Positions 5,294 to 49,701 of a stretch of DNA of 64,000 nucleotides are shown in pieces (position 1 is the first letter of the stretch; every line of letters starts with the position of its first letter). The notes beneath the pieces are model-generated. The model was given only the letters and a program-made list of their open reading frames with translations. It ran no database searches and was not told the origin of the DNA. Source of the DNA: Diphasiastrum complanatum (lineage: Eukaryota > Streptophyta > Lycopodiopsida > Lycopodiales > Lycopodiaceae). The translations under genes were made by a program, and so were the position numbers. The DNA is taken from NCBI GenBank assembly GCA_029204225.1, contig CM055111.1, forward strand, positions 47,779,594 to 47,843,593, read 5' to 3'.

Positions 5294-5984
5294 CTACCTA
5301 AGGTTACCATGCATTTTGATCCATCTAAGTGAAAAAATTTCCATCAATCTTGAGCTATAAGTTGTCAAGGCCCATTTTCCTAGCTATCTTGTTCAATCTT
5401 GGATCAAAAGAGATCAAAAGGACATTGATTGGGTCTGACCTGGTACTGTACGGAATCAGGTGCTCAGACACGTGTGAGGAACATCCAATTTCAGTTTGAA
5501 AATTCTCTCTCATGTTTGATCCATTTATCTTGCTTGATAGCTTGTTTTGAAGCTATTTTTGTCTAGTTTCTGTTGCAATCAGTTTTATTCCATTTGGTTG
5601 AGCCAATCAAAAGTTATAAGCTTTTGAAGAAGGTTAGGTAGGGCACCTAGACCTGGGTGGACACATTTGGTTTGTTCAAGAGATTGCTTGGTTGATCCAA
5701 AATCACAGTTGTATGCTTGCCAATCTCATCTATATGTGATCTAGGCACTGTTTTGAGATCTTAGCCATTTTGTTTCATGCAATATCATTGTATTTGAGTC
5801 AAATTTGGTTTCTTAGTGTATTTCACACGTGCTAAGAGTGTTAGATCCTAACTTTGCCTATACTCCATCATTTGATGTGAAACAGATCTTGTTTTAGAGA
5901 GATTTGAGTAGCTAGTGAGAATCAATTCACAAATTGTTGTAAGATCTTTCATAGGAGGAGATAGTACTCAATTATTGGATCCTA

Positions 5985-8900
5985 TTGAAAGTGTGTAACA
6001 ACATTTATTGTTCATCATTTGAGTTTTCTTCACTTCAAATGTCTTCAATGGGTTCATCCTTGTTGGAACCAAGTGAAAGATTGACCACTTCAAATTATTC
6101 AATTTGGAAAATGAGGCTGGAGTCCATCTTGATTCTTCAAGACGTGATGGACATAGTTCTTGGCCTTGAAGAAGAACCACAAGTTCTTCAAGAGGTTCAA
6201 AAATACAAAAAGAGAGCTAGGATGGCTCTCCACTACATTAAGATGAATGTCTCTAATGAGATATTGAGGGAGATAGGTACTTGTACAACAGCCAAAGAAG
6301 CTTGGGATTGTCTCAAGACTATCTATGAGGCTAAGAATACCTCTAGGCTTCTCACTCTTAGGAATCAAATCTTTCAAAGTAGCCAAAAGAGTGATGAGAG
6401 TGCATCTAGTTATGTTTTGAGAGTAAAAGATATTCATAGAAAGCTTGTTTGCATTGGTGATTCCATCAATCAAAATGAGCTAGTTCAAGTCATTCTCAAT
6501 GGCTTGATAAGTGAATTTGATAACCTTGTCCAATCCTATGCCATTAAGGAGGAGCTACCAAGTTTGGAGACTCTCCAAAGTGTGCTAATTTCAGAAGAAT
6601 CAAGACAAGAGTACAAGCACTTGAGGATGGACAAGCTTTCTCTCACTCATAATGATGGCAAAGCTCTCTTTGCCAAGGATAAGCACAAAGAGAGGAGCAA
6701 GAACCAACATCAACAATCCTCAAGCAAGGACAAAGTCAAATCCAAAGACAAAGATGAGGAGGAAGATGATTCCTCTAATGCTTCATCATCCAAGCTCAAG
6801 AAGAAGAAGAAGATCAAGTGCTTTTATTGTGGCAAGAAAGGTCATTATGCCACCAATTGCTTCAAAAAGAAGAATCAACTCAAGCAAGCCAATATTACCA
6901 ATGAGAAGGAAGATACTATTGCAAGTGATGGAGAGGGATCTCTTATGGTCTCTAGTTTCTCATCTACTCCTTTCAAGAAGGACGGCCTATGGTATATTGA
7001 TAGTGGATCCTCTTCACATATGTGTAGCTTCAAGGACTCTTTCTCTTCTATTGCACCTTATGATGGAGTGAGGAAATCAATATACACTACAAATGATTTT
7101 GAATGTCCTATTGAAGGCATAGGGAACATTCCCTTGAAGCTTGCATCCTCTAAAGTTCTTTCTCTCTCTAGAGTTCTTTATGTACCTAAGCTTACCAAGA
7201 ATCTTATTAGTGCTGGCCAATTGCTTGATAATGGCCTTGATGTAGAATTCAATGTTGATACTTGCACTATCAAGAAGAATGATGAGATACTTGCATTAGG
7301 ATCTAGATTTGGTGGCATCTATAAACTAGATCCAAATGAGTATGTGAATGCTTGTAATGTTGCTCTTGTGAACAAGCTCTCTATGGAGGAATTATGGCAT
7401 AGGAGGTTGGGACATCCCAACTACAAATCCATGCTCTCTATGATCAAAGAGACCAAAGCTATTGGTTTGCCAAAGTCATTCTCCAAGAAGATCAAGCCTT
7501 GTGAGGCTTGTGCTGTTGCTAAATCTCACAAAAAGCCATTTACAAGATCTTCTATCAAAAGCAAGCATCCTTTGGAGTTAATCCACTCGGATGTGCATTT
7601 CTCATCAACTACAAGCAAGGGAGGAGCCACTTGTTTTGTTACTTTCATTGATGATTACACAAGATTCACTTGGATATATCTTCTTGCTTCAAAATCTATG
7701 GTGTTTTATCATTTCCTTATTTTCAAAGCTTATGTAGAGAAGCAATTCTCATTCAAGATTAAAGATCTTAGAAGTGATAAAGGTGGTGAATATATCTCCA
7801 ATAAATTTCAAGATTTTTGTGAGCTTGAAGGCATTAAAAGAGAGTTTTCTTGTGCCTACTCTCCATCTCAAAATGGAGTGGCCGAGAGAAAGAATAGATC
7901 TCTATGTGAATGTGCAAAATCTATGATAATTGAGGCATCTTTGCCCAAAGATTTTTGGGGAGAAGCCATCAATTGTGCAAATTATCTTTGCAATAGGCTC
8001 CCACATATAGCTCTTGGAGGAAAGTCACCATATGAAATCTTTTTTTTTAAGAAGCCTAAGGTTGATCACCTTAGAGTTTTTGGATGCTTATGCTTTGTCC
8101 ATATTCCCTTGGAAACAAGGAAGAAGGAAGATCCTAGTGCATGCAAAGGGATCATGGTTGGATACTCATCCACCAAGAAGGCCTATAGATTCTTTATACT
8201 CTCTACTTCTCAAGTTGTTGAAAGTAGAGATGTTGTCTTTCATGAAGATCAACACTCATCATTTGAAGAGGCCGAGATCAAGAAATCTATGAATGCATCA
8301 TCAATTATTGATTTTGAAGACAATCATGATGTGATGGGGTCGAGATTTGAAGAAGACTCTCCTCGGATTTTTTCACCAAGAAGATCCATGAGAGATAGAT
8401 CCGAGCCTAAGAGGCTCTCATATGTTGACAAAGGCAAACAAGTGGATCTTGATTCCACTAATTATGTTTTTTATGTCTCTCATGAAGAGCCAAAGAATGT
8501 ACAAGAGGCACTCAATACCAAGGAGTGGTATGATGCCATGAAGCAAGAGTATGATGCATTGATCACCAACAATACTTGGGAGCTTGTGGATCCTCCATCC
8601 AACAAGCATGTGATTGGTTGCAAGTGGGTATTTCGGATCAAGTTCAATCATGATGGCACCATCAACAAGCATAAAGCAAGATTATGTGCCAAAGGATTTG
8701 CTCAAATCCATGGTCTTGATTATGAGGAGACCTTTGCATCCGTTGCAAAGATGGTGACAATAAGAATTCTTATATCTCTTGCTTGTTTTTTCAATTGGAA
8801 GGTGTTCCATTCTAAGAGCATAGATACTCCAATGGAGCAAATTGTAAAAGATCCTAATAAAGGTGATGAAAGATCCTTTGAGGACATCACACTTTTTAGG

Positions 8901-9572
8901 AGTCTTGTAGGCTCCTTGATTTGGCTTACCATTACTAGGCCCGATCTTAGTTTTTGTGTGCACAAATTGAGTCAAGTTATGCAAGATCCTAAGATCCATC
9001 ATTGGAAGATGGCCAAGAGGATTCTAAGATATGTATCTTCATCTTGTGATTATGGTCTACTCTATAAAAGTGAAGATCTATCCATTATTGGCTACTCGGA
9101 TTCGGACTTTGCAAGTGACAAGATGGATCGAAAGTCTATTAGTGCATACACTATCTTTCTTGGAGGCAATCTAATATCTTGGCTTTCCAAAAAGCAAGAT
9201 ACTATATCTCTCTCTTCATGTGAGGCCGAGTACAAAGCACTCACTACAACTACCAAAGAAGTGCTTTGGATCAAGAGGATATTAATGGAACTAAAGTGCA
9301 TCAAGGAGGATGATCTACCAATGATCAAGTGTGATAACATCTCGGCCCAAGCTCTTGCCAATAATCCCATATTTCATGCAAGAAGCAAGCACATAGAAGT
9401 GGCACACCATTTTGTGAGAGAAAAGCTTATTGGAGAAGAAATCTATTTGGAGCATGTCAACTCGTCCTCTTGTATTGCCGATCTACTCACCAAGCCTTTG
9501 AGCAAAAGTGCTTTCATCAAGCATAGATCTAATCTTGGAGTTATATCAAGATCAATGTTCAAATCTTCATAG
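5985..9572 (+). CDS. Copia C1 gag-pol polyprotein, RT core deleted
   Basis: This single 1195-codon frame encodes the structural and enzymatic proteins of the element. In order: gag (SNYSIWKMRLESIL near residue 40); a basic/acidic linker; a CCHC knuckle CFYCGKKGHYATNC (near 280); protease WYIDSGSSSHMC (near 336); the pre-integrase motif ELWHRRLGHPNYKSM; integrase with ELIHSDVHF, LRSDKGGEY and NGVAERKN; the start of RT (KWVFRIKFN, KARLCAKGF); then RNase H (ITRPDLSFCVHKLS, SSCEAEYKAL). The frame jumps from NWKVF to SKSIDTP near 8808. The other copy has about 450 extra bases here, including YVDD. The deletion preserves the frame. The likelier start is the ATG at 6039, since MSSMGSSLLE gives a normal gag N-terminus. 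Confidence 0.93.
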   Translation: MKVCNNIYCSSFEFSSLQMSSMGSSLLEPSERLTTSNYSIWKMRLESILILQDVMDIVLGLEEEPQVLQEVQKYKKRARMALHYIKMNVSNEILREIGTCTTAKEAWDCLKTIYEAKNTSRLLTLRNQIFQSSQKSDESASSYVLRVKDIHRKLVCIGDSINQNELVQVILNGLISEFDNLVQSYAIKEELPSLETLQSVLISEESRQEYKHLRMDKLSLTHNDGKALFAKDKHKERSKNQHQQSSSKDKVKSKDKDEEEDDSSNASSSKLKKKKKIKCFYCGKKGHYATNCFKKKNQLKQANITNEKEDTIASDGEGSLMVSSFSSTPFKKDGLWYIDSGSSSHMCSFKDSFSSIAPYDGVRKSIYTTNDFECPIEGIGNIPLKLASSKVLSLSRVLYVPKLTKNLISAGQLLDNGLDVEFNVDTCTIKKNDEILALGSRFGGIYKLDPNEYVNACNVALVNKLSMEELWHRRLGHPNYKSMLSMIKETKAIGLPKSFSKKIKPCEACAVAKSHKKPFTRSSIKSKHPLELIHSDVHFSSTTSKGGATCFVTFIDDYTRFTWIYLLASKSMVFYHFLIFKAYVEKQFSFKIKDLRSDKGGEYISNKFQDFCELEGIKREFSCAYSPSQNGVAERKNRSLCECAKSMIIEASLPKDFWGEAINCANYLCNRLPHIALGGKSPYEIFFFKKPKVDHLRVFGCLCFVHIPLETRKKEDPSACKGIMVGYSSTKKAYRFFILSTSQVVESRDVVFHEDQHSSFEEAEIKKSMNASSIIDFEDNHDVMGSRFEEDSPRIFSPRRSMRDRSEPKRLSYVDKGKQVDLDSTNYVFYVSHEEPKNVQEALNTKEWYDAMKQEYDALITNNTWELVDPPSNKHVIGCKWVFRIKFNHDGTINKHKARLCAKGFAQIHGLDYEETFASVAKMVTIRILISLACFFNWKVFHSKSIDTPMEQIVKDPNKGDERSFEDITLFRSLVGSLIWLTITRPDLSFCVHKLSQVMQDPKIHHWKMAKRILRYVSSSCDYGLLYKSEDLSIIGYSDSDFASDKMDRKSISAYTIFLGGNLISWLSKKQDTISLSSCEAEYKALTTTTKEVLWIKRILMELKCIKEDDLPMIKCDNISAQALANNPIFHARSKHIEVAHHFVREKLIGEEIYLEHVNSSSCIADLLTKPLSKSAFIKHRSNLGVISRSMFKSS

Positions 9573-15014: not shown

Positions 15015-15976
15015 TGTTACTTAGATTGCAACATGTATTTCATAGCCTGTCAGTGGGAGTCGCGGTTCCGATACTCAGCTACGTGCATAAACCAGCCATT
15101 TAACCAGATATACCTCAAGAGGATCAACGTTCTGGAACGGGGAGCAATCCTACCACTATCTACCAATTCAAAAAACAATCAAGAACAAGATTAACTACTG
15201 AAACAAGAAAAAACTAGATTCCTTACAGCATTTTAACAGTCTAAGAATCAAGAAACACTCATTTCTTGAAGCTTAGATTACTCAAGAACAATCAAGAACT
15301 GGACTGTAAGAAAGTATGCAAGATCTACACCACAAACCAGCCTATTTAGTTTACTTGAATGCTGATTTCTACCTTATTTCACAAGCAAGAAAATGAATCC
15401 TAATCCGTAACTAAGCAAGAGACAAGAAAGCAAGAACCTAGTTAATCCACAGTAGCATGCTCATAGAAACTTCACTCAAGAACATTGCCATTAACAAGGA
15501 GCTTAGCAATCATCAAGAACTCGTGGAGGATCCTCTTTATTTGCTCAAGAGAATTTGATAATACATTCAAAGCTCCCTCACAAGAGAGGGGGGCCCTTAA
15601 ATAAGCAAGAAGGCTGCCCATGTAGAGCCCAAGTGGCAATTCCACCAAATTAGAAATTACATGTGGAATTTGCCCTTTCACTAAAGGTCGCCATCAAAAG
15701 GTGGCTCACTCTAACTAATTTAAGGGGGGTCTACATTTATTTACAATGCCTAGGAAATATTGCTACCTCCTACATGGTCGTTCCTTCTCTGGGATACACC
15801 ATGTAGGCTCACATAGATATTTTACTGTCATTCTAGCTAGTAATTTCTCGGCTCTCATGCTCGGCTCTCAACTTCTTCTGCTCTCCTCCTTCTGAGACCT
15901 CCTCGGTCATGGGTGAGAGATATTTTGTGTCTTCAACTTGGCTTGACATCTGGGGATTCTCCGAAATCTGCTAACA
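15015..15976 (-). repeat. 3' LTR of gypsy G2
   Basis: On the minus strand this 962-bp LTR begins TGTTAGCAGATTTCGG and ends CTAAGTAACA, giving matching TGTTA/TAACA ends. It has a TATA-like CTTATTTAAGGG near 15600. Only one copy is in the window, so the outer end rests on the terminal motif alone. Confidence 0.7.
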
Positions 15977-15987
15977 TTATCCTCCCC
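15977..15987 (-). promoter_or_regulatory. Polypurine tract and ORF stop of gypsy G2
   Basis: The minus strand reads GGGGAGGATAA directly before the LTR start. If element X and one TAAT are removed, the extra ORF from 23303 onward reads KRKDIRGG and stops at this TAA, so the stop codon lies in the polypurine tract. Confidence 0.72.
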
Positions 15988-15991
15988 TAAT
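15988..15991. repeat. TSD of element X, left (TAAT)
   Basis: TAAT stands outside the CTG terminus here and outside the CAG terminus at 23303-23306. The host ORF of gypsy G2 becomes continuous when one copy is removed, which supports the 4-bp size. Confidence 0.7.
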
Positions 15992-16036
15992 CTGTTGCAG
16001 GCATTAGAGGAGTTCTTAATATCAAAAAGACCCTTT
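15992..16036 (+). repeat. Left terminal inverted repeat of element X
   Basis: About 45 bases pair with 23250-23302 in reverse complement, with two small indels near the outer end. The inner block ATATCAAAAAGACCCTTT is identical. Confidence 0.75.
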
Positions 16037-16526
16037 AAGAAATGCCATGTAGGATATACAAAAATATCAAAATAAATAAAACAATATTGTTTGTTTGCTT
16101 GCCCACACCACTCCCAAGGCCTCCCCAACTCTCAATGATCTAACCACAGTGTCTATAGTCACAGTTAAGAACTGTTAATAGTTCGCAGTATAACTTGACT
16201 AAATTCAAAAATATTCCCTCCATTGGTTACGAAAAGGACAATATTTTCACTGGATCTAGAATATGACCGCCATCCCCAAATTTGAATCAGAAAAAATTGC
16301 AAAATGTTTACATATGCATTCCTTCCACAAGAATGGAAATATGAGCGCCAACTACCTATTGGAATGAAAAAATGAGCGGCATTTCCAAATTTGAATCAAG
16401 CATACAAGCATGGAGATTGGATTGATCGTACATAGTATATAATATAATCAAAGATGAGTATTTTGTTTTGCTTCATAGAATCTGGTCATAGTACTTTGAT
16501 GCAAGTGATTACTCTATTTTTTTTTT
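16037..16526. other. Left subterminal region of element X, upstream of gene A
   Basis: This is AT-rich with no gene. The phrase CCAAATTTGAATCA occurs twice (16273 and 16385), each just after a GCC/GCGGCAT-type word. This gives a short subterminal repeat of about 110 bp. Confidence 0.45.
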
Positions 16527-17519
16527 ATGATGACATTATATCATCTACATGTGGATATCCCTGTTGATTTGGCACCTTTGCAGAGAAGAGGAGGCAAAGG
16601 AGTTCAAATATCTACTGAAGATCGTTCTCGTTACAGGGCAGAAGGAAAGAAAAACGTGGATTTGTGGACAGATGGAACATTATATCCACAAGATCCAAGC
16701 ACTTTGACACATCCCACATTCTCTTCAATAACTCATTTAGTTACATGGATATGCAATGGGCATAGTGGATTACTAGGATATTGTGAAAGATTGCAAAACC
16801 ATGGAAAACAACTTTATATGAATAAAGTTCACTTTTTAGAAGGTGAGTTAATTCAGATATCCTCTTATTGTCAGAATAGAGATTGTCATCTCCAAAAGAC
16901 GTTAGAAGAAAATGAACAACTTAAAAAAAATCATGAATCATTATAGAAGATAGCAATCAATATCAAATCAAAAATAGAGCAAATGCAATCAGTCTTACAG
17001 TCTATTCGTATTGAAAACTTGCAATTACTGAAGGATGTGGATTTAGTAAAGAAGAAGGCTGAAAGTAAGAAGCGAAAGCGACAAAGTTGCAAGGATATTC
17101 AAACGCTTTCAAAAGGAGGTTATCGAAATAGAAGGATCTGTGCATTCAAGTAAGCATATTCTAAATTTTGTAAGTTTTTCAATGACATTTGGATTTTAAT
17201 TTCAGCTATGGTGATATTCTGCTAACTATCTATTTTTTTTTGCAGATCTGCATTAGTAGCTCCTCGGAATATTAAAGACAATGCTTCACTAGGAATGTCA
17301 TTGGGCACAATATTGACTTCAAATCCATTGAGCGTATCATGATGAACAATAGGATTTCAAATGTAAAGTTTAAAATAGCAGAGTCTTTGATGGTGGACAT
17401 TCAAAATATTTTAGATAAGACTATAGTTCAGGGTGCTTGTGATTTTGTAGGTATTAGTAGGGAAGCATATGCAACAATATTTAAACTAAAGAAATTATCT
17501 GCTAGCGTATGCATCTAAT
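16527..17519 (+). pseudogene. Element X gene A: unrecognised coiled-coil protein with nuclear-type basic cluster
   Basis: Exon 1 runs 16527-17149 and exon 2 from 17246. The donor GTAAGC and acceptor TTTGCAG are intact and phases agree. The protein opens MMTLYHLHVDIP, has EGKKNVDLWTDGTLYP and GHSGLLGYCERL, then a long helical stretch (LEENEQLKKNHES, IKSKIEQMQSVLQSI) and a basic cluster KKKAESKKRKRQ. A TAG at 16944-16946 interrupts exon 1. In exon 2 the frame shifts after SLGMSLG and continues FKSIERIMMNNRISN to a stop at 17517-17519. The 3' end overlaps the convergent end of gene B, so the protein may once have been longer. No family is recognised. A relative lies at 2475-2995. Confidence 0.6.
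17150..17245 (+). other. Intron of gene A
   Basis: The 96-base intron starts GTAAGC, is T-rich near the end, and closes TTTTTTTTTGCAG. Joining the exons keeps the frame (AA + A gives Lys). Confidence 0.7.
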
Positions 17520-18737
17520 AGATGTGCATTATCCTTATTTCCACTAAGCTCAATATAAGTGGAATACAATGAATAATGGGATCTCCTTAAAGGAACATTC
17601 CCATCAGTAAAGCCTAAAATGTTCAAAACATAAGATCTTTTGACAAAAATGATCTTATTTGTCTTAACAAATTTATGTCCTCCTAAATAAAATGATAAAG
17701 CTTTAACTGCCATTATAAGACTCTCCCCGACTGGGCTCAGCTTGGAATGAGCAATACAGATCTCACTCTTCAAGAAATGCCGAAGATAGTGGCCCAGTCC
17801 ACTGTCCCTCTGGAACAAGGATGCGTGTTGTCTGAAACCACCTCGTCTCACAGAAAAATCATCTATTATGAGAGCATTTTGCAATAGGAAATATGTTAGC
17901 GAAAATACATTCAGTGATTGAAAACATTCAAATGCAAGGAAGATTAAACACTTACACATTCTTCATCATCAGCAGCAACCAGATCAGGATGATCAATATA
18001 ATGACCATGTATTGAAGTGGAATCATCAGTGAAATGCATTAATGATGGACGAAGGAAGCCCATCTGGGATTGAAATGCCGTGAATTCTTCATCGGATGGT
18101 CTGCCTCACCCATCCTCAGCTATATTTGATAAAGGCTTATTCAGGCATTCTTCACCGGTCATAAGACCCTCCTCATCATCAAAATCAATACCAACAACAA
18201 TGTCATCTGTCTCAAAATCTACAAAGTCGGAGAATTCGGAAATTGTGCCGGATAATAAACATAGAACCTCGTCCTCACGATAGTCAAATAATTTACATAA
18301 ATCAGCAGTAGTAAAATATACATTGTCATTAATATAATATACAAGCAAATTGAAAAGACATTTCGAATCCTCCATAGATTTGGATTCATCATCAGATGTA
18401 TTTTGGCCAGTGAAAGAATCCCGGAGAACATCAGTATTTAAATCAATGAAGTCACTTTCTTTATCAGGAGTGTCGATAAGAAAGTGACTGATATCCCTAA
18501 TGGCTGATGAACAGAGGAGGGTGCAAAAGGAGAGTCAGCAACAAGAAACTCATCATCATCTGGGATCTGAACTAAAAGAAAAAGTACGAAACCACTCTGA
18601 TATTCAACCAATTGACATTTCTTGTTGCAATACGAACACATAGAACTACTTTTGAAAAGATCAAACAATTTGGTGAACATTCTATCCAGTCTATGTCTAA
18701 AAGCTGGGAAGAAATGAACAAGATCAGTATAATGCAT
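17495..18737 (-). pseudogene. Element X gene B: unrecognised acidic protein
   Basis: Minus strand: exon 1 from an ATG at 18737 (an upstream exon is possible) to 17956; intron 17955-17879; exon 2 17878-17495. The translation has CSYCNKKC near residue 35, an acidic middle (IPDDDEFLV, DFETDDIVVGIDFDDEEG), and a C-terminal region with RRGGFRQHASLFQRDSGLG, SPVGESLIMAVKALSFYLGG and LLDAYASR. Damage: a frame change near 18490, a TGA at 18103-18105, and an acceptor that reads TTGCAA where TTGCAG is expected (donor GTAAGTG intact, both phase 0). I do not recognise it. It diverges from gene C and converges on gene A. Confidence 0.55.
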
Positions 18738-19532
18738 GTACTGGAGTTGACCTATGGAGGAAATAGGCTTCTAAGTATATCCCTGAATCTGACATAATGT
18801 TTATAAAATACGTCAGAATTTGGTTATACAGTCCTGAAAACATGTAGATATGAAATGAGCATGCACAAAAGCGATATGTCGCGAATTTCGAGAACGCAAA
18901 AGGTAAAAAAATATTCGGTTTTCGTGCCATTTATATTAAATTTTCGCACATGGTCAACGGACTTATGACACATGTCTACTTTCAATTCGACAACAGGCGC
19001 AGGCACGTGTGAGATGACACCTGCACATGTGTGAAATGACACCTAGACACGTGTCGCGTGTTCATTCGAGTGCTTATAAACACGTGTCGCTCTCACATTC
19101 GATCGTACAAATCCCACACGTGTAGTGTGACAGAGTGACACGTGTCGCTCTCGCATTTGTCCGTACAACTCCCACACGTGTGACAGGACGTTCTTTCGCA
19201 CGTGCAAACCCCGATATAAAATCACAAATTTCGATGAATTTTTTTCACTTTTTTCTCGCTTCGCATATCGCATTTGTGCGCGTCCTTCACGATCAAAATT
19301 CCTCCTACTACCTTCCATGCGCACAGGTCTGATACATCTTCCTACGTGTCACCCCATATCGCACTTGTGCGTCTTTCCTCAAATCTAATCGTTCTCTCTG
19401 ATATTCGGCTCGCATAGGTCCGATATACCGTACATTCTGTCCGTACATAGTGGTCCTCTGCGAGTCCTTTATCATCCCTTCCTTGTCATCCTAACCTTCA
19501 CGCACAAGTCCGCTATCACACAGTTCACGCCC
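18738..19532. promoter_or_regulatory. Shared upstream region of genes B and C with clustered ACGT-core motifs
   Basis: Between divergent genes, 18990-19350 holds at least eight CACGTG or ACGTGT-type words: GCACGTGTGA, ACACGTGTCGCG, ACACGTGTCGCTC twice, CACACGTGTAG, CACACGTGTGAC, GCACGTGCAAA and TACGTGTCACC. A unit of about 59 bases containing ACACGTGTCGCTCTC and then CCCACACGTGTG occurs twice (19080 and 19138). Such G-box-like motifs bind bZIP and bHLH factors in plants; their function here is inference. A TATA-like GATATAAAA sits at 19213. Confidence 0.5.
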
Positions 19533-20500
19533 ATGGATAGGAGAAAGCAGACAAGGAGAGACTTCTTCTCTCCTGGCTGATCCTCATCTCCTACGGTTGC
19601 CATCACACCCCCTGCTAGACCTAGAACGCGCAACCGCAGCAGGTGGCTCTCTGAGATACGCAAGTATCAGAGGTCAACAGCTCTGTTGATCCCAAGAGCT
19701 CCATTCTACTGTGCTATCCGAAACATAACAAGAAATGATCTCGGATAGCACGTTAGATTCACACCGAGTGCTCTTCAGTGCCTTCAGGAGGCTGCTAAAG
19801 ATTATATTAGCCTTTTTTTTTAGGATTCTTTTTTGCTTGCCATCCATACCAAGAGGGTTACCATAATGCCCAAGGATTTTCAGCTTCTGATGAGAATGAG
19901 GGATAGGTACTATAGGTTACATGTATCTCAGCCTGCTGCTCCTAGACCAACTCCTGTAGATAGGACTCATCTTCCTACAAAGCGTCCTAGGAAGCAGACA
20001 GCCCCCAAGCATGCTCCTAAGAAAGTGAAGCCTATCCCAGAATCCATTGTAGATAATGCTGTAAATATAGCTACCTCTGTTTTGGATACTCCTAATATTG
20101 CTGTAGATACTACACTTCCACCTCCTCCTCCTCCTCCCAATTTCTATACATATATAGATTCGCATGATTATCTTAAATTTGAGAAAGACATATCGGATGC
20201 TATAGATACAATTGGTACTCCTTTTTGTTTTAGACTAGAAGAACTTGATTTTAGTATTGATTTTAGAGTTCTAGATTGTCTGGATCTCAAAGACAGATGG
20301 GCTTCTATCATTGATCCTGTGATAGATTCCGGACTGACACTCTTGCAATTTGACATTGCAAGAGATTCATCAAACGAGTTGCTGGTGCTGAGTAACTTTC
20401 GGCTCCAGGCCTTCAAGGAGAATAATGACACATTGTCACAGTGTCTGACAAGTGGATTCACACCAGCAACAAAGTATCTGGTCATTCCTTATCATACCAA

Positions 20501-20607
20501 ATAAGATATATTAAGTGCTTCTTCTTGTTTTATGCATTAACATTGACATTTTCAATTTAAATAGTTCTCAGAATTGCCGCTAAAGTACTTTCAATCTTAT
20601 TTTGCAG
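20501..20607 (+). other. Gene C intron 1 with mutated donor
   Basis: The acceptor TTTTGCAG at 20600-20607 is good. The donor reads ATAAGA, which is GTAAGA with one change. Joining 20500 to 20608 gives the codon AAT and restores the run PYHT-N-DHWSL expected in Ulp1 proteases. Confidence 0.65.
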
Positions 20608-20794
20608 TGACCACTGGAGTTTAAACCTGATCTCTATTAAGAGATCTGTAAATAATATTACTAAATGTTCTTGTGTCAAGATGAATTCGGCGAGAAATAC
20701 GCATAAGGATGTAGATATATTCATTCCATATCTAAGTAAATATATTCCTACAGACGTTCCCCATTCCGTGGACTGGCAGATCGTCAGCTTGGAG

Positions 20795-20905
20795 GTAAAC
20801 TCTTCTTTCTTAATAGCATTTTGAAATCAGTATTCTAATGAAATATTTTCAATCTAATTCATTCTGTTTCATAATTGATTTCTTGTGTGCTGAATTATTT
20901 TGCAG
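20795..20905 (+). other. Gene C intron 2
   Basis: It runs from donor GTAAAC to acceptor TATTTTGCAG, in phase 0 on both sides. Confidence 0.7.
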
Positions 20906-21010
20906 TCACCCTAGCAAAATGATTCATTCAACTGTGGGTGGTACACATTGTACAATGCCAAGCTGTTTTTTGAGTGGTTCATCCTTCAACAAGATGTTGA
21001 TATTTCTAAG

Positions 21011-21109
21011 GTAATAAATTCTGTTTATTCTTATTTTGGAATCATGATTAGTTTTCTATTCTGGTGATGTTATTGGCCATTACTAATGCATAAATGTTCT
21101 ATTTTGCAG
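21011..21109 (+). other. Gene C intron 3
   Basis: It runs from donor GTAATA to acceptor ATTTTGCAG, in phase 0 on both sides. The last exon then gives FTLPEYTSSQVYRFRQEI and ends DDVVVLN at the stop at 21245-21247. Confidence 0.7.
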
Positions 21110-21442
21110 TTTACACTTCCAGAGTACACATCAAGCCAGGTGTACAGATTTAGACAAGAAATTATCCTGAGTATACTGGCTCGGGCAAGGCTTCAGCCTC
21201 CCGTTATTGATGATGGTGCAAAAGATGATGTAGTTGTACTAAATTAAAATCAGAAACAATATAGATAGCATAGAACCAAAATACATGTATAGACTTCATA
21301 GAAAAATATACATTGATATATCAAATGTTGCTCCAGTTTATGAATTTGGGAGCACAAAATACATGTACAGATGCCCAACTTGGGCTTTCATTTATTGAAT
21401 GAAAGGGTGTATACACAGATTTTTACCAAAGTTTATTTGAAA

Positions 21443-22817
21443 CTATTGTTCTCCCACAATGGTGATTGTTGTAGGTAGATCTTTGCAGCACGTTATCAGC
21501 TCCTGTCTTTTTCGCATCTATGACATGGCAAATATTAGTGAATGTGTAATTGTAAATGATGACATTTTCTATTATTTTGTTCTATTTTGAAATGGCAATA
21601 AACATAAAGTACTTACGAGTCTTCCGTTGATGATAAATCTGAAATATGTTGGTAGATTGGTTTGTAATAGCATCAGCTCTGTTCTGATAAAATCAAGCTT
21701 TTAGTGCTCTTCCACCTCAACCATAGTCAAATATTCCTCATTGTAGATAATGCTTATCTCCATTCAGTTTGTGTGACCATTTAGTTCAAAGTCTTAATCC
21801 AGTGGTAGCCATGTACCTTCAATTTTCTTGTATCTCTGGTAGCTAAATGTGAGACTGAGCATTTGCTTTTCGATATAATATTGAAAGATCATTGAGTACT
21901 TTTTAATCCTGAATTCTATGCCATTATTTGTTTTACTATCCCAGCCTTGATCCATGAGATCTGACAAAGTCTCATCTGATAAATCCTTGCAAACAAATAA
22001 AGTTGGTGTCCTACAAACACTAGCACTCGAGAAAAAATCAACAAATGTATGCAATGAGATAAACCAACTTAGGTGAACAATTTTTGAGCTTGTGCTTATC
22101 TTCATAGCATTTTTAATATCAATGAGTAGCTTGCATCTCAAGGATTCAGAAACAATGTTGTCAGGAGTAGGCCACTCATCACTTTGAAAACTAGGCAATG
22201 GAATTGCTTCGAGCTTGCCAAAACCTCCATCTGTTTGTGGCGTATATAAAGATTCATAAAAATAGATACCACAATCTGCAAGTTCCTTTGGACTTCTTCC
22301 TCTGTATTGTAGCTTTCCAACATCAGAGTGAATCATGTCTAATATTCCTGCAAGTGATTGTGCGGGCTCCCATTCACTTATGCATAATGGATATAAATCC
22401 GAAAAAAAAAAAAACAATGTTGAAGCATTTAAATCATAATCTGAAGAGCATCAATAAAGGAAATCACCTATGATTGCTGTAGAGTGCATATGTTTTGATA
22501 TACTTACAATTACATTTTTTATGATCATGAGGATTGATATCATGTACTTTGATTTCTGAATGCATATATACATGTTGCACTAAGACTTCGGATATCGATT
22601 AACCTCCCAGGGTAGTCTTAAATCCCAAAATTTTTGCTTTCCAATAAGATTTGTAAGTCATTTTTGCTCTTTTCTTTTGTCGAAAATTGCCTTTTGATGA
22701 TGGATGCAGCAATACCCATGAGTTCTTCGTATATTTTGTTGGCTTCTAGTTATCAGCTTCATCTTTCTCATTGTAAAGAATCACATAATCGATTGTAGAT
22801 CTGGGTCTCCTCACCAT
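21443..22817 (-). pseudogene. Element X gene D: unrecognised four-exon protein
   Basis: Minus strand exons: 22817-22604, 22555-22508, 22440-21617, 21517-21443. Donors are GTTAAT, GTAAGTA and GTAAGTA; acceptors TTCAG, TTCAG and CATAG; phases agree (1, 1, 0). The protein starts MVRRPRSTIDYVILYNEKDE. Its long middle exon reads CISEWEPAQSLAGILDMIHS, LQYRGRSPKELADCGIYFYE and FRIKKYSMIFQYYIEKQ. The end has LPTYFRFIINGRL and DLPTTITIVGEQ. Damage: a TAG in exon 1, a slip in a poly-T run at about 22400, and stops after TWLPLD and at two later places. No family is recognised. It is transcribed inward from the right terminus. Confidence 0.58.
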
Positions 22818-23249
22818 TGCTATTTTCAAAGCTTGGGCGCCAAAAATCTCTCTGATATGTTACTTGGTTTTAATTTTTCGTATCACATTTAATCTAATGT
22901 GAATGCCAACATAGTCACAATTACTGCGTATACCATATTTTATGTAACTGTACATACTTTATTTCTATAACCGTAACTAGTATAGTTAGAAAATTTCATT
23001 ATACTAACTAGCATAGTAAAGTAAATTTAACTTGAGATATTGACGTCGGGCATATTAGCATGTGTCGAGCAGGAAAAAGAAACCAATGGGATACGTACAT
23101 GTTGCCCGGACAAAATTTTAAATTTCGCTATATTGCATTTTTATTTTTTAGTCAATTTGAACTACGTTACGTAGATTTCAAATCTGTGCATTTTGATTGG
23201 ACCTGGTGACGGTCGAAACTGAAAAAAATAAAAAATAAAAATATCTATA
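22818..23249. other. Right subterminal region of element X, upstream of gene D
   Basis: No gene is seen. It is AT-rich, with the repeated words ACTAGTATAGTTAG and ACTAGCATAGTAAAG near 22975-23025. Confidence 0.45.
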
Positions 23250-23302
23250 CAAAGGGTCTTTTTGATATTGAGAACTCCTCTAATGACCCACTACAACACC
23301 AG
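23250..23302 (-). repeat. Right terminal inverted repeat of element X
   Basis: It pairs with 15992-16036. The outer bases are ACACCAG, flanked by TAAT (23303-23306). Confidence 0.75.
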
Positions 23303-25110
23303 TAATGTCTTTTCGCTTGGCACTTGGAAAAGCGTGGATCTTCATTCGCTTCCGTAAAACCAGGAGCTTATTATCTGCAAAACTTATTCTTCAAAATTGG
23401 AAGTCTCTCAATTGGCCGCTACATTCCAGCCCTGTTGAGAGCTTTTTGCGAGTCCTGCTCGCCTCGTCATCGTGCTGTTTGCTTTCTCTCACTCATCTTT
23501 CGCCCCAGGGCTTCAAAAACTTGGAAGCGGAGCTTACTTCCAAAATTGAGGGGCCCCAGGTATTCTCTTACCTTTTCAACAAAGCCCATTTCTTGCCAGT
23601 CCTCCACCATGGTCACATAGCATGATGACATGAAAGCCGCTCTGTAGTATAGCTTGGCCATCATCTCATGGTCTTCTTTCGACTGGAGAGCTACATTCAG
23701 GTTGATCTTGATGGGATCCAAGCCTCGATCCCAGAAACAATCTTTGGGTTGGGTACTGATCTGGAGTGTGGGATGGTGAGGCTAAACCAAAAAATAACCG
23801 TTGTGTTAGAGCTGAAAATGGAGGTGGAGGTGGAGGTGGAGGAAGTGGAGGGATGATGTTAGTAACTGTTGTAGTGGTGGTGGTTAGTGGAGGGGTCATA
23901 CTTCTTCTTGGCTGCTTCCCCTTTTCTGTCTCGTCGTCGTTTATTTTCATCAAGTCCGCGGCATCAAAATATTGCAATGTGTCCAATGTGTGGACTTGTT
24001 GGGCCTGTGGTTGTTGGTCGTGTGGTTGTTGAGCCGCCTCTGTGTCCTAGGGACTAGATATCCCCACTCGTCCCCTCCCCAAAACTTGTGTCGGTGCTGA
24101 TGTTGGTGGCGTTGGTGTAGTAATCAGTGTGGGTGGAGTGGTGACTCTATCTGGCTGACCTGTGACTTGAGATACTGTTGTGTCAGGTGCCGGTGTGGAG
24201 GTAGTTGCTCCATCACCCCCGTTGATGACATGTGAGGGTGATGAGTGTTGTTGTGATGACATGGATGAGCTTCCATCATCTGAGGCAGAACCATCTGAAA
24301 CTGATCCCACTGGTGAGGTGCTCCCAACTTGAAGCTACTTTTGCATCATTTGTTGTCATGTGTTTGGCAACTGGGCCTTGGAGGTATCGGCCTCTTGAGC
24401 TTCGGAGGTTGCAGTGATTTGTTGATCTTGCTTCTGTACCAGAGGGAGAATACTGGTGTGGACTCGTTTATCTTGGGATCCTGATAGGGAGGTAGCTCGT
24501 GATCGTGCACGCTTGGACTTTTTTTGCTCGATGGGAATGTCCCATGCCTTGTTCGCAAGCTGCAAGTGGTGTTGAAGCTTTGGCCCGTTCTAGACTTGGT
24601 GGAGGGTGATATCTGTCAAGAGATATCTGAGTATTGTTATTGGCTACTTGTTCTTAATGCACTCATGAAGGCAGTTCAAAACAAACTGTGCCCAATCATA
24701 GAGATTCTGAAAATGCAGTCGTGAATCTGCCATCATGTGAAACATGGACATGGGTACACTCTGCAACTTGGTTCTTGGTCATTGTGTGCACTTTGTCAAG
24801 TACACACATGTCGCTTGTAGTTGTGAGTCATTGATTGCTTCGACTCAATACCCATCCTTGTTTTCTCACTTGGCCATGGATGGGTCAATGAATTTAAAAT
24901 ATACTGTCTGCTTGATCTTTTTAAGTGTTCTGGTGACAGCATTGGGTCCTCCTGGTAACCCAAAAGGTTGCAAGTCAGCCGATGCAAATGATATGTTGTA
25001 AACATAGTTCCTCACAGGAGGAACTATTAGCTGGCACAACCTTGCTGAAGCATTGTAGTTGGCAGATATCATATGCACGAGGTACAGGCTTTGATACCTC
25101 ATCAAGACTG
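23303..25110 (-). pseudogene. Extra 3' ORF of gypsy G2, broken
   Basis: Read on the minus strand between pol and the LTR. An upstream part (about 25110-24356) contains QPFGLPGGPNAVTRTLKK, AINDSQLQATCVYLTKC and LHFQNLYDWAQFVLNCL, broken by several stops. A low-complexity P/T/S-rich middle (24327-23760) follows, then a conserved-looking end (23721-23467) with DPIKINLNVALQSKEDHE and LYYRAAFMSS. The last segment resembles the G1 extra ORF (ARVYYRTAF). After the end of element X the frame closes at the polypurine tract at 15977. The function is unknown. Confidence 0.55.
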
Positions 25111-39568: not shown

Positions 39569-40861
39569 TCACTGTGGTGGCCGGTACTTGTGCAACCGGC
39601 TGTCATTGATGGGTGTATTGAATGGTGTCCCATCTAGCTTCTCTAAATTCACATCTCCATGATTATGAATTTCCTTGATCCGATAAGGACCTTCGCCTGT
39701 GAATTTTAATTTTCCCTTGATCACCTTGGTTTTATACATCAGGACCAGATCTCCAGAGCGAAGATTCTTCTTTTGTAACCTGCGATCGTGCCATGCTTTG
39801 CATCTTTCTTTTTCAACTGCCAGTGCACGCACAACTAGTAAGCGTGTTTCACAGAGTTTATGCAGAGCTTCGTGGTGTAGTTGTAGAGATTTGGATTCAT
39901 TAAGTCGTTGTGTTGTGGCAATCCTTAATGAAGGGACTAAAAACTCTACTGGCATCACAGCATCCTGACCATATTCCATTGGAAAGGTGCTTGATCAGTA
40001 CTTCCCTTATATGTTGTCCTGAATGCCCACAGAGCAGCATGCAACTTATGTTCCCAATTTGATCTGCTAGCATCAACTGTTTTTGTGAGCACACTACACA
40101 GGATCTTATTGGATGATTTTGCTTGTCCATTTCCATGAGGATAATAAGGCGTACTGGTTCTATGGATCACGAAGAATTCCTCCAATAGGACCTTGATGGT
40201 CTCATTGACAAAATGACTTTCGCTGACTAGCTCCATCGAGCATCCAAAGCATATTTTTATAAAGGAACTTGGCAGTGGTCCTAGCATCAGCTACTCTTAC
40301 TGCCTTGGCTTCGACCCACTTGGTGAGATAGTCGGTAGCTACGATTATGTATTGAGCATCGGTACTTCTTGCTGTAGGGTGAATTGGACCGATGTAATCC
40401 GATTCCCACTTTTTGAATGGTGCTTGGGCTAAGACCAGGTGCAGTAAGTCATAATTCAATCTCGTTGGTCTCCTCGCCCTTTGGCACACATCGCACTTTC
40501 TCAAGTATTCCTCCGTATCCTTATGAATCGTTGGCCACCAACATCCTGATTGCAGGATCTTGCGAACTGTAATGTCGGATGCAAAATGGTCTCCACCCAT
40601 GCCTTCATGTGAAAGCAAAATGATTTGGGTGGCCTCATGAGGGAGAATAGACCGCCGAAGAATCCCATCTAGTCCTCTTCGATACAACTGGCCGACAATC
40701 AGTTGATAAGGTCTAGCCTTCAGGATCAATTTTCGTTGATCCGCCTTTGGTAGTGATTTATCTAGCTGAATCTTGATGGATTTAGCTTGATTTGGCTTGA
40801 TTTTCTTAGATCTAGCGGTGATGGCTGAGTAGATTAGCTTTTTGTAACGTGCCACCCCCAA
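39569..40861 (-). pseudogene. Gypsy G1 integrase, second (downstream) copy
   Basis: Minus strand: ILPHEATQIILLSHEGMGGD (HH zinc half), CDVCQRARRPTRL (CC half), KWESDYIGPIHPTARS (first Asp), VATDYLTKWVEAKAVRVADA, then a shift into VNETIKVLLEEFFVIH and YPHGNGQAKSSNKILCSVL (Glu region altered to K), then YGQDAVMPVEFLVPSLRIAT and GEGPYRIKEIHNHGDVNLEK (C-terminal domain). It repeats 40868-42143 with an offset of about 1,305 bases. It retains the C-terminal domain that the first copy loses at its end. Confidence 0.85.
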
Positions 40862-40867
40862 TCTGGA

Positions 40868-42143
40868 TCTGTCTCACTGTGGTGGCCAGTACTTGTGCAA
40901 CCAGCTACCGTTGATGGGTGTGTCAAATGGCGTCCCATCTAGCTTTTCTAAGTTCACGGCTCCATGATTAAGAATTTTTTTGATCCTATAAGGACCTTCG
41001 CCAGTGAATCTTAACTTCCCCTTGATTGCCTTGATTTTCATACATCAAAACCAGATCTCCTGAACAAAGATCCTTCTTTTGTAATCTGCGATCATGCCAA
41101 GCTTTGCGTCTTTCCTTTTCAGCTGCCAGTGCATGCACAGCTAGTAAGCGTGTTTCACAGAGTTTATGCAGAGCTTTGTGACGTATCTGTAGAGATTTGG
41201 ACTCATTAAGACATTGCGTGGTGGCAATCCTTAATGAAGGAACTAAAAACTCTACTGGCATCACAGCATCCTGATCATATACCAATTGGAAGGATGTTTG
41301 ATCAGTGCTCCCTTTATATGTTGTCCTGAATGCCCACAGTGCAACATACAACTTGTGTTCCCAATCTGATCTACTAGCTTCAACTGTTTTTGTGAGCACG
41401 CTACACAAGATCTTATTGGATGATTCTACTTGCCCATTACCCCGAGGATAATAAGGCATACTGGTTTTGTGGATCACGAAGTATTCCTCCAATAGGACCT
41501 TGATGGTCTTGTTGATGAAATGGCTTCCGCAATCACTGACTAGTTCCACCGGGCATCCGAAGCGCACAATGATATTTTCATACAGGAACTTGGCAGTGGT
41601 CCTAGCATCAGCTACTCTTACTGCCTTGACTTTGACCCATTTGGTGAGGTAGTCTGTGGCTACGATTATGTATCGAGCCTGGGAACTCCTTGCTGCAGGG
41701 TGAATTGGACCAATATAATCCAATCCCCATTTTTCGAACAGTGCTTGGGCTAAGACTGGGTGCAGTAGATCATAGTTCAATCTCGTTGGTCTTCGTGCCC
41801 TTTGCCAAACATCACACTTTTTCAAGGATTCCTCCGTATCTTTATGAATCGTTGGCCACCAACATCCTGATTGCAGGACCTTGCGAACTGTAATGTCAGA
41901 TGCAAAATGACCCCCACCCATGCCTTCATGTGAGAGCGAAATGATTTGGGTGGTCTCATGAGGAAGAATACACCGCCAAAGAATTCCTTCTTGACCTCTT
42001 CGATACAACTGGCTGGCAATCAGCTGATAAGGTCTAGCCTTCAAGATCAATTTTTGTTGTTCCGCCTTTGATAGTGATTTGTCTGGTTGGCCATGCATTA
42101 GATATTCAACAATGTCGGCAGCCCATTCTGGTACTGTGTCCAC
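40868..42143 (-). pseudogene. Gypsy G1 integrase, first copy
   Basis: The 385-codon open frame (42143-40986) has LSHEGMGGGHFASDI, CDVWQRARRPTRL (one zinc Cys changed to Trp), KWGLDYIGPIHPAARSSQA (first Asp), VELVSDCGSHFIN (second Asp) and YPRGNGQVESSNKIL (Glu). It then has YDQDAVMPVEFLVPSLRIAT and a frame slip in the C-terminal domain at about 41020. It reads on from RNase H (YMADHVS) through a stop near 42207. Confidence 0.88.
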
Positions 42144-43504
42144 GTAAAATAAGGCAGCATCGGCCAGTTGATAGTCGGGTTGGGTTGCAACCTCCTTTTT
42201 CTTGATTCACGACACATGATCTGCCATGTAGTGTTGTTTTCCCTTGCAGAATACTATCCGAAAATAAAACTCCAACAACACAAGTAGCCATCTGGTGATT
42301 CTCCCAATGTTGCAAGTTTTGTTAACGAGATAGAGCAAGGGTTGATGGTCCGTATAAAAAGCGAAATGTGTAGCCATCAAGTAGTGCCAAAATTTCTTAA
42401 CCACATAGATCATCACCAGTGCTTCCCGCTCTGTGGTTGAATAATTCATTTCTGTATCACTGAGTTGTCAGCTTGCAACTCGGATTGGAAAATCCTTTTT
42501 GTGTTCTCCTGGCTAGGTTAAGACTGCTCCAACTGCATACTTCGATGCATCTGTATGCACATGAAACTCAATGGACCAATTGGGTGGACGTAAGATTGGT
42601 GCTGAAACCAATGCATTCTTAAGCTTTTGGAAAGCCTTCAGGGCTTTCTCGTTCCAATGTAGATTCGTTGTGAGTTTGTAAATTGGTCGGGCTAACTCCA
42701 CAAAATAAAAAATGAAGATCCTATAATAGTTAGCATGACCCATGAAAATGTAGACTTCACGGATCGTTTCCGGTGGTGGTAGATCAACAATGATCCTGAT
42801 ATTTGATAGGTTTGTGGCGATCCCGTGTCTTGACACTATATGGCCGAGAATCAAGCCATGTGTCACCCAAAATTGACATTTTTTTGAATTCAAGGAGATT
42901 TGGAAGTTGCGACATTTTCATGCACGCACAGATCGTCCAAGAAAATTTTCAGAAATTTTTGCAAATATTATTTGAATGCCACCTGCATGACACGCTGGAA
43001 GGTGCTTGGGGCATTGCAAAGTCCAAATGGCATCACTTTATAGGCATAGGTTCCCCATTCCGTGGCAAATGTTGTCTTGTGTTGGTCTTGGGGGGCTATT
43101 TTCACCTGGTTGTAGCTGCTGAAGCCGTCTAGAAAACTGTAGGCTTCGGCGCCAGCTACTCTGTCGAGGACACTTTCTGTAAATGGTAAAAAAAAATGAT
43201 CCCTTTTGGTGACTGCATTTAGCACCTTTAGATTCACACAAATCCGTATTTTTCCTTTCTTCTTGGGTACTATAACTATTGGCGATACCCATTCCGTGTG
43301 CTCGATTTCATAAATGAAATTTGCATCCATCAGCTTCTGCAACTCCTGCTTGATTAGCTCTATGTAGTTCGGATTGCAGCGGTAGTAACGACTCACCTTG
43401 GGGACTACTCCATCCACCAAGGGTATGGTGTATTGGACTACTGTTGGTGGAATGCCCTTAAGATCACTATAACTCCAAGAAAAACAGTCTCTATACACCA
43501 CCAC
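42144..43504 (-). pseudogene. Gypsy G1 reverse transcriptase and RNase H
   Basis: Minus strand: YTIPLVDGVVPKVSRYY, IVPKKKGKIRICVNLKVLNA, FLDGFSSYNQVKIAPQDQHK and YKVMPFGLCNAPSTFQRVMQ (43504-42968). Then a stop, and the catalytic box reads FLDD (near 42930). It continues LGHIVSRHGIATNLSNI (connection) and FHVHTDASKYAVGAVLT, TEMNYSTTEREALVMIYVV and FAFYTDHQPLLYLVNKT (RNase H, to 42207). Several stops. Confidence 0.9.
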
Positions 43505-45225
43505 AATGATCGTAGTCTCTTGAACTGTGTGGGCGTTAACTGCTCTCCCACATGCACTATATTTTCTTCTTCACCTGGCTCGGCAAGGTTCATCGACTGT
43601 GTTCGCACAAGTCCCTCGAAGACTTGTTTCGTTGGTGCCTGATTTTGATTAGATTCTTGTTGGGCTTGCGACATCATAATTACCACGTCGTCCAAGGTAT
43701 AATTTTTGAAAGTCTCAGGCATATTGTGAACTGCAGCTCGTCGAGATTCCTCTTTCAACATATTGATCTTAACCCGACTGGCCATCTTTTGGTTTTCTAT
43801 CATCGGTATAGAAGATGACGCTGTATCTGAGTCCATCTTGATTGACTTCAAGGAATCCAACACCTTCTTTTTGTCCTTTTTTGTCATTTTGGTGGATTCG
43901 TCCTTGTTGTCTTTCATCAGAACTGCCGTGACATTCGCCTCGTGGTTGCGAATATCAACATCCACTGTAGTTATCACCTCTTCGGATAGATCACTCCATC
44001 CGATCACCTGGTTGTAGCGTTGCTTCAACTGATTCTTCTTATTCGTAGGTGCCTTGGGTGAATCGATCCTTGAGACTTTCGCCATAGTAGACTTTTGCGG
44101 TGGTTGAGCTGGTACTTTCTTGATTCCGTAACGATCTAGGTCCATGTGGTGTAGGACCTGATCATCAGTGAGCTCAATCTCCTTATTATAAGTTAGAACA
44201 TGTTGCCAAGGGACTAAATCATCGTCCACTAGGTTCTCAATAGGTTCCGCTGACAACCATGCTACGTTTATCATATTCACCCCAAATGTGATTGGTGTGT
44301 CCATAGTGTGACACTTGGGTGACGATGAACTGGGTTCAAGATCTTATTCATATTGACATGTCCGACAGTCAATAGTTGCTAATGCATCTGTCCATCTCAC
44401 GACATTTGTCTCTGAATCATAGTGACCTCCCTTGGCTGGCCTTGGGCGATCAATTGTGTGATCTGTCGTGGATGATCCGTCATCAGCTTTGGGTGCAATA
44501 GGTTTCACCGCCCATGTGGTTGGATCAACCTTTACAACCTGCTCCATGTTCTCGAAGGTGAGTTTCCCCGTACTCCAATTGTGTACTACTTGCGTAGTCC
44601 TCAACCATGGTCTTCCTAGTAACACACGATATGCAGTTGGAGATTCAGGTATATCCATGACTACAAAAGTGATCACAAATTGCATGCCTACTATGTTTAC
44701 AGGGATATCGGCAACTACACCTTTTGGTTTCACATAGGATTGATCCGCCAGCTTGATGGCGAATCTTGCTGCCTTCAACCCTTGTAAACCCCATTTTTCA
44801 TATAAAGTAGTGGAGATCAAATTGACACCTGATCCTCCATTTACTACTGCTGCCTCGTCCTCGTATCTCTTGTGTTTGATTGGCAAAGTGATGTTGTGTT
44901 TCTCACTTTCCCATGCTGTCCCGATGTGGAGGAGGTTACTTGTTTCTTCATAGCCCATACAATATATGGGCTCAGGTGCTACTAGCTCCTCTTCCACTTT
45001 GGCCCATTTAGCTAGAAGGCTTTTCACTTGTGGTGCAATCTGCAGGAGTTCCCTGAGTGGTAAACTAACATGGCTTGGTAATAAAAGTGTGAGCCTTTCA
45101 GTGCGTGATTCATCAGGCTCCACCATGTGAAAAGCTAGTTCATGCTGGTGCAACCGATCATTCTGATCAGTGCACAGTGGTGAGTCCGCTTGCGGTTCCC
45201 GTTCGCTGCCAACTGGAGACTCCAT
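43438..45225 (-). pseudogene. Gypsy G1 protease and linker
   Basis: The open piece 45225-44344 has KRYEDEAAVVNGGSGVNLIS, the aspartyl-protease active-site region. The expected Asp-Ser/Thr-Gly is Asn-Gly-Gly here, so the catalytic Asp is changed. VVADIPVNIVGMQFVITFVV and YRVLLGRPWLRT (flap and end) follow. The next piece, 44304-43438, is a linker before RT (ITFGVNMINVAWLSAEPIEN; MSQAQQESNQNQAPTKQVFE). A stop near 44344 separates the two. Confidence 0.78.
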
Positions 45226-45392
45226 GGGATTGTCCCCTTCCTGCTCTTTTTCCTCCGCTTCTGCCCTCTGTACCCAATGTCATATTTTCTGGTACTGTCT
45301 TCTTTCTTCTCTCACATTCGGATATGGTGCTGAAGTTGAGGGTTGGTCGTTAGTGACCGAGGGTGGTGTTGAGGGAGCCACTCCTTCCTCTT

Positions 45393-49662: not shown

Positions 49663-49701
49663 AGGATGCTTGCTTTTGATAGAAGATCTTGTAAATGGCT
49701 T

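Follow-up and report, generated by a model that had tools for sequence, protein, structure and literature searches.

Among plant transposons, MULE and CACTA elements can contain Ulp1 domains (PMC2528002, PMC13317346), some Cryptons encode a C48 peptidase (PMC3212892), and a fungal hAT element has captured histone H3 (PMC6710886). Transposon-borne counter-silencing is also known, the reported examples being VANC, SET and TET/JBP (PMC12730594, PMC10398659), and VANC proteins recognise tandem repeats of non-coding sequence (PMC10398659). The CMCT clade is described as marked by C(2)C and H(3-4)H motifs, CA..TG termini and duplications of 2-5 bp (PMC12730594).

Here, we analyse a stretch of 64,000 nucleotides, referred to as the window, which contains a transposon with a gene (gene C) whose predicted protein joins an H3-like tail, an H3 core, a linker and a C48/Ulp1 domain. 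A literature search of titles and the beginnings of abstracts recognised no H3-Ulp1 fusion; as most subscription papers and Repbase Reports lay outside its scope, the absence of such a fusion from the literature is unproven.

Results

Structure and insertion sites of the element

A 35-nt inverted repeat flanks positions 16002-23285 of the window and delimits an element of 7,284 bases. Its left copy (16002..16036, + strand) starts with CATTAGAGGAGTTC..., is 97% complementary to the right end (23251..23285, - strand) and has a terminus common to other copies. The termini of the element read CATTAG..CTAATG, i.e. they are of the CA..TG type. Copies in which both ends are present measure 7.8-9.4 kb, and compared with other copies the window element has deletions of about 1.8 kb at 17489 and of 0.25 kb at 18852.

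The element carries four genes in the order A (+), B (-), C (+) and D (-), the fusion gene being the third. Gene A, of which 16509..17489 (+) contains the start, encodes the transposase, and its remainder (about 1.8 kb, including the DDE core) is absent after 17489 and present in other copies. Genes B (17495..18800, -) and D (21430..22826, -) are both broken, their ends are approximate, and they match no Pfam family above the cut-off. Short repeats with CACGTG (19002..19181, no strand assigned) precede the fusion gene, in the interval that separates it from the divergently oriented gene B, and by analogy these repeats are possibly comparable to those bound by VANC.

A target-site duplication of 2-9 bases was found in none of the nine distinct copies with both flanks, the best partial agreement being 7 of 9 bases in one copy. 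For two of these nine insertions (L018 and L024), the joined flanks of 200+200 bases align across the junction to related window sequence. There are three such unoccupied sites, with identities of 85-93%, and their junctions are seamless, with neither duplication nor loss. MULE elements create a target-site duplication of about 9 bp. Membership in that group was rejected, because gene A has no Pfam MULE match and no duplication of up to 9 bases was present. To judge by its ends and its copies, the element is a high-copy DNA transposon with terminal inverted repeats.

Other repeats are present in the window. Gypsy-like remnants at 39569-46412 (-) include two related integrase-like stretches, recognised by eye, and both match the flanks of L024. 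Two closely similar Ty1/copia-like polyprotein copies, also identified by eye, lie in opposite orientation at 5955-9572 (+) and 47693-51259 (-). The region 56549-58752 (+) contains, in two overlapping frames, a gene that presumably resembles G-type lectin S-receptor-like kinases.

The fusion gene in the window

Gene C spans positions 19533-21247 of the + strand and comprises 465 codons and a stop codon in four exons. Exon 1 (19533..20500, 968 nt) encodes the H3-like tail (MDRRKQTRRD..., 19533..19610), the H3 core (19611..19901, residues 27-123 by Pfam Histone), the linker and the start of the C48 domain. The C48 His (in DHW) is located in exon 2 (20608..20794, 187 nt), and the C48 Gln and Cys (in FNCG) are located in exon 3 (20906..21010, 105 nt). 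Exon 4 with the stop codon (21110..21247, 138 nt) completes the gene. The Pfam C48 match covers residues 311-436, which corresponds to 20463..21157 with the introns within.

An earlier note on this DNA, made from the sequence alone, had described the same gene, and its exon coordinates and structure proved exact on re-reading. Introns 2 and 3 are of the GT..AG type, and the donor of intron 1 is AT and not GT in this copy; in addition, the frame is interrupted by stops at codons 16, 72, 97 and 388, the last of them in exon 3. With four in-frame stops and a lost intron 1 donor, the window copy is unable to make the protein and is a pseudogene.

For the Pfam search, the translation of the window copy was written with X at the stop codons. 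The Histone profile matched it with an E-value of 1.3e-24 (87.2 bits versus a cut-off of 26.4), and the Peptidase_C48 profile matched with 4.2e-9 (37 bits versus a cut-off of 20.7), so that both families are present above their curated cut-offs. In the open copy L011 (see below), the values were 1e-27 (97.3 bits) and 1.1e-10 (42.2 bits), respectively, which also exceed the Pfam cut-offs. The two domains that the note had named are recovered by profile search, and the H3 fold also by the fold comparison described below. Its view that they form one gene inside a mobile element agrees with the profiles, the fold comparison, the other copies and the terminal inverted repeats. At the level of genomic sequence, neither of the outcomes that would have contradicted the note (an absent H3 or C48 profile match, or related copies with the halves always apart) was encountered. 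The fold of the transposase, the lack of a target-site duplication and the recurrence of H3-like genes beside related transposases, all described below, go beyond the note.

Copies in the source genome

A 1,001-base query from the gene region returned 1,959 first-look candidates from the source genome, which has 1.745 Gb and is probably plant-like by its genes; 40 candidates were scored, and all of these were 94-100% identical. Twenty of the 40 were read together with the window, and 17 of these rows span gene C; L010, L014, L019 and L022 do not and were excluded. The two halves are joined in the same order in all 17, which, with the high identity of the scored copies, shows that their proximity is not accidental. 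After L009 (near-identical to the window locus) and L016 (same protein as L015) had been collapsed, 15 distinct copies remained. L009 (C20:47958800-47967800) is an inverted repeat of the element and its flanks (window 15901-23400) about 163 kb away, with an identity of 99.9%, and may stem either from segmental duplication in recent times or from the assembly.

Among the 15 distinct copies, L011 on C7 and L015 on C1231 (with L016 on C5) alone are fully open; the elements with the open gene on C7 and C5 span about C7:71809545-71818225 and C5:31928552-31937796. Each has 470 codons, no internal stop and GT..AG at all three introns, and in both of them exon 1 is open over 331 codons that contain the H3 core, the linker and the start of the C48 domain together. 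Apart from stops, the frame is kept in eight of the 15, these two included, and the other seven carry frameshifts. The codon 97 stop, which lies within the H3 core, occurs in eight of the 15 copies and is scattered over a star-like tree. Hence, many copies multiplied while lacking a complete gene themselves and moved with help in trans. Replacement/silent counts, in which stops were not included, are 60/30 for variants shared among copies and 173/76 for variants found in a single copy, and the neutral expectation is 2.35-2.65 depending on the region. Within the fusion family of the window, variation is therefore near neutral and there is no clear signal of selection.

The H3 half

A model of the exon 1 product, calculated with eight H3 proteins in the alignment, contains four helices in the H3 order. 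The mean pLDDT is 56 overall and 72-81 per ten residues in the core. When this model was compared with the PDB using Foldseek, nucleosome entries accounted for all of the 50 matches listed, and a PDB sequence search with the first half of the protein returned H3 chains (best 60 of 186 matches). Structure prediction thus gives an H3 fold for this half, as the earlier note had proposed.

The core is identical to canonical H3 at 47 of 94 positions, i.e. it differs at about half of them. Its identity is 45/97 to Arabidopsis CENH3 and 44/98 to human CENP-A, and its loop 1 is one residue longer than that of H3. A nine-row tree, with CENH3 rows from outside the host, gave a support of only 34/10 and settled neither H3 nor CENH3 as the ancestor. 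The key H3 positions R83, F84, H113, K115, R116 and D123 are kept in 15 of 15 copies.

In the tail, a comparison of MDRRKQTRRD with the host MARTKQTARK shows that R2, K4, Q5, T6 and R8 are kept and that the position of K9 is occupied by Asp. K4 is retained in 14 of 15 copies. Thirteen of the 15 have Asp in place of K9, and the remaining two have Asn and Tyr. Among the first 40 residues of L011, the sole Lys is K4. The canonical ARTKQTARKS tail is absent from the fusion.

The fusion as a query of the protein database retrieved 8 proteins at E up to 1e-3, all of them H3 and none a fusion; the top match, P0001, is a tandem H3. Three of the H3 matches (P0002, P0003 and P0005) have long N-terminal extensions.

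The C48/Ulp1 half

The protease half of L011 matched an Ulp1-like SUMO protease (PDB 6dg4, E 0.00097), yeast Ulp1 (1euv, 0.0014) and SENP2 (0.0095) in the PDB. Residues 205-465 gave nothing in the protein database at E up to 1. All 15 copies have the His residue; Gln394 is present in 14 of them, and Gln393 and the Cys are each present in 13. By these residues, the domain is likely to be catalytic, and this is less than secure because a triad Asp was not seen at the usual spacing after the His when a weak alignment to 1euv was inspected by eye.

The transposase

A composite of several copies was used as the gene A protein in searches. It has 18 protein relatives, on contigs of up to 9.4 kb, with E-values from 2.7e-119 to 4.5e-70. 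A viral origin was considered and rejected, since 63 pattern matches in viral contigs included zero relatives. The model of one relative, P0010, is of moderate quality (mean pLDDT 65, pTM 0.50). In a Foldseek search with this model, 11 RAG1 chains came first (E 8.7e-8 to 2.0e-6), followed by HzTransib (1.4e-3), and the next match had an E-value of 1.0.

The motifs of gene A are arranged in the order D383, D479, C499xxC502, H703-x4-H708 and E728, and the corresponding residues of RAG1 are D600, D708, C727, C730, H937, H942 and E962, so the spacings are close to those of RAG1. In 16 of 19 sequences, the CxxC motif follows the second D at a distance of 20 residues. The HxxxxH motif and the E are visible in three of the 19, most of the others ending before that point. 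As both CxxC and HxxxxH-E fall into regions of the P0010 model with pLDDT <50, these motifs are read from the sequence and not from the model. A PDB sequence-profile search with the transposase family found no RAG1 or Transib at E up to 10 and gave weak coiled-coil-type matches only, and gene A matches no Pfam family above the cut-off. In summary, the transposase family looks built like one of the RAG1/Transib-type fold, but we do not file it as RAG1 or Transib because the sequence profile reached neither.

H3-like genes next to related transposases

Out of 6,059 first-look candidates for a canonical H3 query of the source genome, 150 were scored and sorted by hand. They comprise 13 full-length H3 genes with near-identical sequence, 8 partial matches (77-91% identity) and 129 H3-like domains (44-57% identity), the latter spread over many contigs. 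Nine of the 13 full-length matches (L039-L042, L046-L050) are found on one chromosome-size contig, C11.

A query with P0010 resulted in 20,242 first-look candidates, and 51 loci were scored. An H3-like match is located within 8 kb of the transposase at 14 of the 51 loci, compared with 0.07 pairs expected for random placement. This number is a lower bound, because 150 of the 6,059 H3 candidates were scored, and the 14 pairs are not independent events, as some look like duplicates of one another and as the two H3-like genes that were read among them, L060 and L061, both belong to the second family described below. Thirteen of the 14 neighbouring matches are on the strand opposite to the transposase, and none is a full-length H3 gene. 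In the fusion family of the window, the H3 gene has the same direction as the transposase.

The eight loci read (L052, L053, L054, L056 and L058-L061) form a second H3-like family by their core, with genes at L052:738-1983 and L053:700-1890. Their tail, ARTKQTARD, is present in L052 and L053 and was not found in L054 and L056, and the other four reads are too short to contain it. A Pro-rich linker separates the tail from the core; in L053, both lie in the same frame, interrupted by a single stop. Next to L054 there is a relative of gene B (BLASTP E 1e-12, 32% over 110 residues). No C48 match better than E 0.4 was found in the 0.8-1.6 kb downstream of the second-family gene at the eight loci, and a more distant exon is possible. 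Both families keep K4 and have Asp at K9. Together with the retained H3 fold, this hints at selection for a histone exempt from K9 methylation, although it is not proof of it.

Discussion

Gene C is very probably what its domains and surroundings indicate, namely the third of four genes of a transposon with terminal inverted repeats and a transposase of the RAG1/Transib fold, encoding an H3-C48 protein. Taking identity and mechanism jointly, our best reading is that the product is an element-encoded anti-silencing chromatin factor with a SUMO-type protease, to which we assign a probability of roughly 0.45. The H3 part would pair with H4 or with histone chaperones and thus bring the protein into or onto nucleosomes. 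Its tail would be readable at K4 and unable to carry K9 methylation. The C48 part may then take SUMO or a similar tag off silencing factors at these nucleosomes, as a result of which the transposase gene would stay transcribable.

This reading is supported by the Pfam domains, the H3 fold, the two open copies, the kept residues, the K4/Asp9 tail, the similar tail of the second family, the 14 of 51 co-locations and the known cases of counter-silencing by transposons. It is weakened by the codon 97 stops, the small number of open copies (2/15), the near-neutral variation, the doubt about the triad Asp, the lack of a C48 match beside the H3-like gene at the eight second-family loci and the lack of a fusion protein in the database. 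A more general form of it can be put forward tentatively: a lineage of RAG1-fold transposons in a plant-like genome that insert without a target-site duplication may carry their own H3 variant with K4 but without K9, and the fused form, found in one family, would combine a nucleosome component resistant to heterochromatin with removal of SUMO from silencing factors at the copies of the element. We regard this extension as rather doubtful.

It is unlikely that gene C acts in transposition itself, its H3 part tethering the transposase complex to nucleosomes and helping in the choice of targets, and its C48 part releasing SUMO from the transposase or from target factors, or only binding it. The recurrence of H3-like genes next to the transposase in the source genome would fit such a role, and a doubtful triad Asp would fit SUMO binding, but many copies have spread despite a stop in the H3 core, and nothing indicates contact between the products of genes A and C.

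A captured H3 and a captured Ulp1 could also have been joined accidentally and then amplified along with the element as functionless, passive cargo. Captures of both kinds by transposons have been reported (PMC6710886 for H3, PMC2528002 for Ulp1), the family varies near-neutrally, and the majority of copies are broken. However, it would then be hard to explain that an H3 core diverged at about half of its positions keeps its fold and key residues, that two copies are open, that H3-like genes recur beside related transposases and that Asp is found at K9 in two families. We consider passive cargo rather improbable.

The longer loop 1 and LIPxAPF-like residues common to the fusion and Arabidopsis CENH3 could point to a CENH3 origin of the H3 half, which would direct the protein to centromeres and favour insertion or survival there. 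This is very unlikely, given the tree support of only 34/10, an identity to H3 that is no lower than that to CENH3, and the distribution of H3-like matches and fusion copies along many chromosomes (with centromeres unmapped). Two separate transcripts that mimic one gene are scarcely credible in view of the single open exon of L011 and L015 and the intact splice sites after it.

If the anti-silencing reading is true, a core histone would be a new anti-silencing tactic, in which the nucleosome itself is altered and a SUMO-type protease is brought along. The presence in a plant-like genome of a transposase with an apparent RAG1/Transib fold, whose insertions lack a target-site duplication, is also of interest for how the RAG1 fold evolved. 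The open copies make H4 binding, nucleosome incorporation, SUMO cleavage and anti-silencing directly testable.

Comparison with known systems

The element resembles the CMCT clade (EnSpm, Transib/RAG1, Plavaka, ESTA and Lanisha) in its D-D-E residues, the last two of which enclose C(2)C and H(4)H, and in its CA..TG termini, and other members of the clade likewise carry epigenetic genes, such as TET/JBP (PMC12730594). It has all of the marks of the clade except the target-site duplication. It differs from the described members by lacking the 2-5 bp duplication and by its H3-like gene, with Lanisha compared by its description only (PMC12730594). Spy transposons are also reported to be DNA transposons without a target-site duplication, but they are grouped with PIF/Harbinger and ISL2EU (PMC12730594).

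Oomycete Cryptons share with the element a transposon-encoded C48/Ulp1 peptidase, but they are tyrosine recombinase elements, and the part of their description available to us mentions no histone partner (PMC3212892). Comparable in cargo are also KIU/VANC and the other MULE and CACTA elements with Ulp1 cargo, in which an Ulp1-type domain is likewise carried by a plant DNA transposon and possibly acts against silencing (PMC13317346, PMC2528002). In contrast to KIU/VANC, the protease here has an H3 partner, and the element has a transposase of apparent RAG1/Transib fold instead of a MULE transposase, terminal inverted repeats and no target-site duplication. Finally, the hAT capture in fungi is alike in that H3-related sequence has been multiplied by a DNA transposon (PMC6710886). 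In the present case, the H3 part has diverged strongly, has an open frame in some copies, is joined to a C48 domain and is carried by a transposon of another kind.
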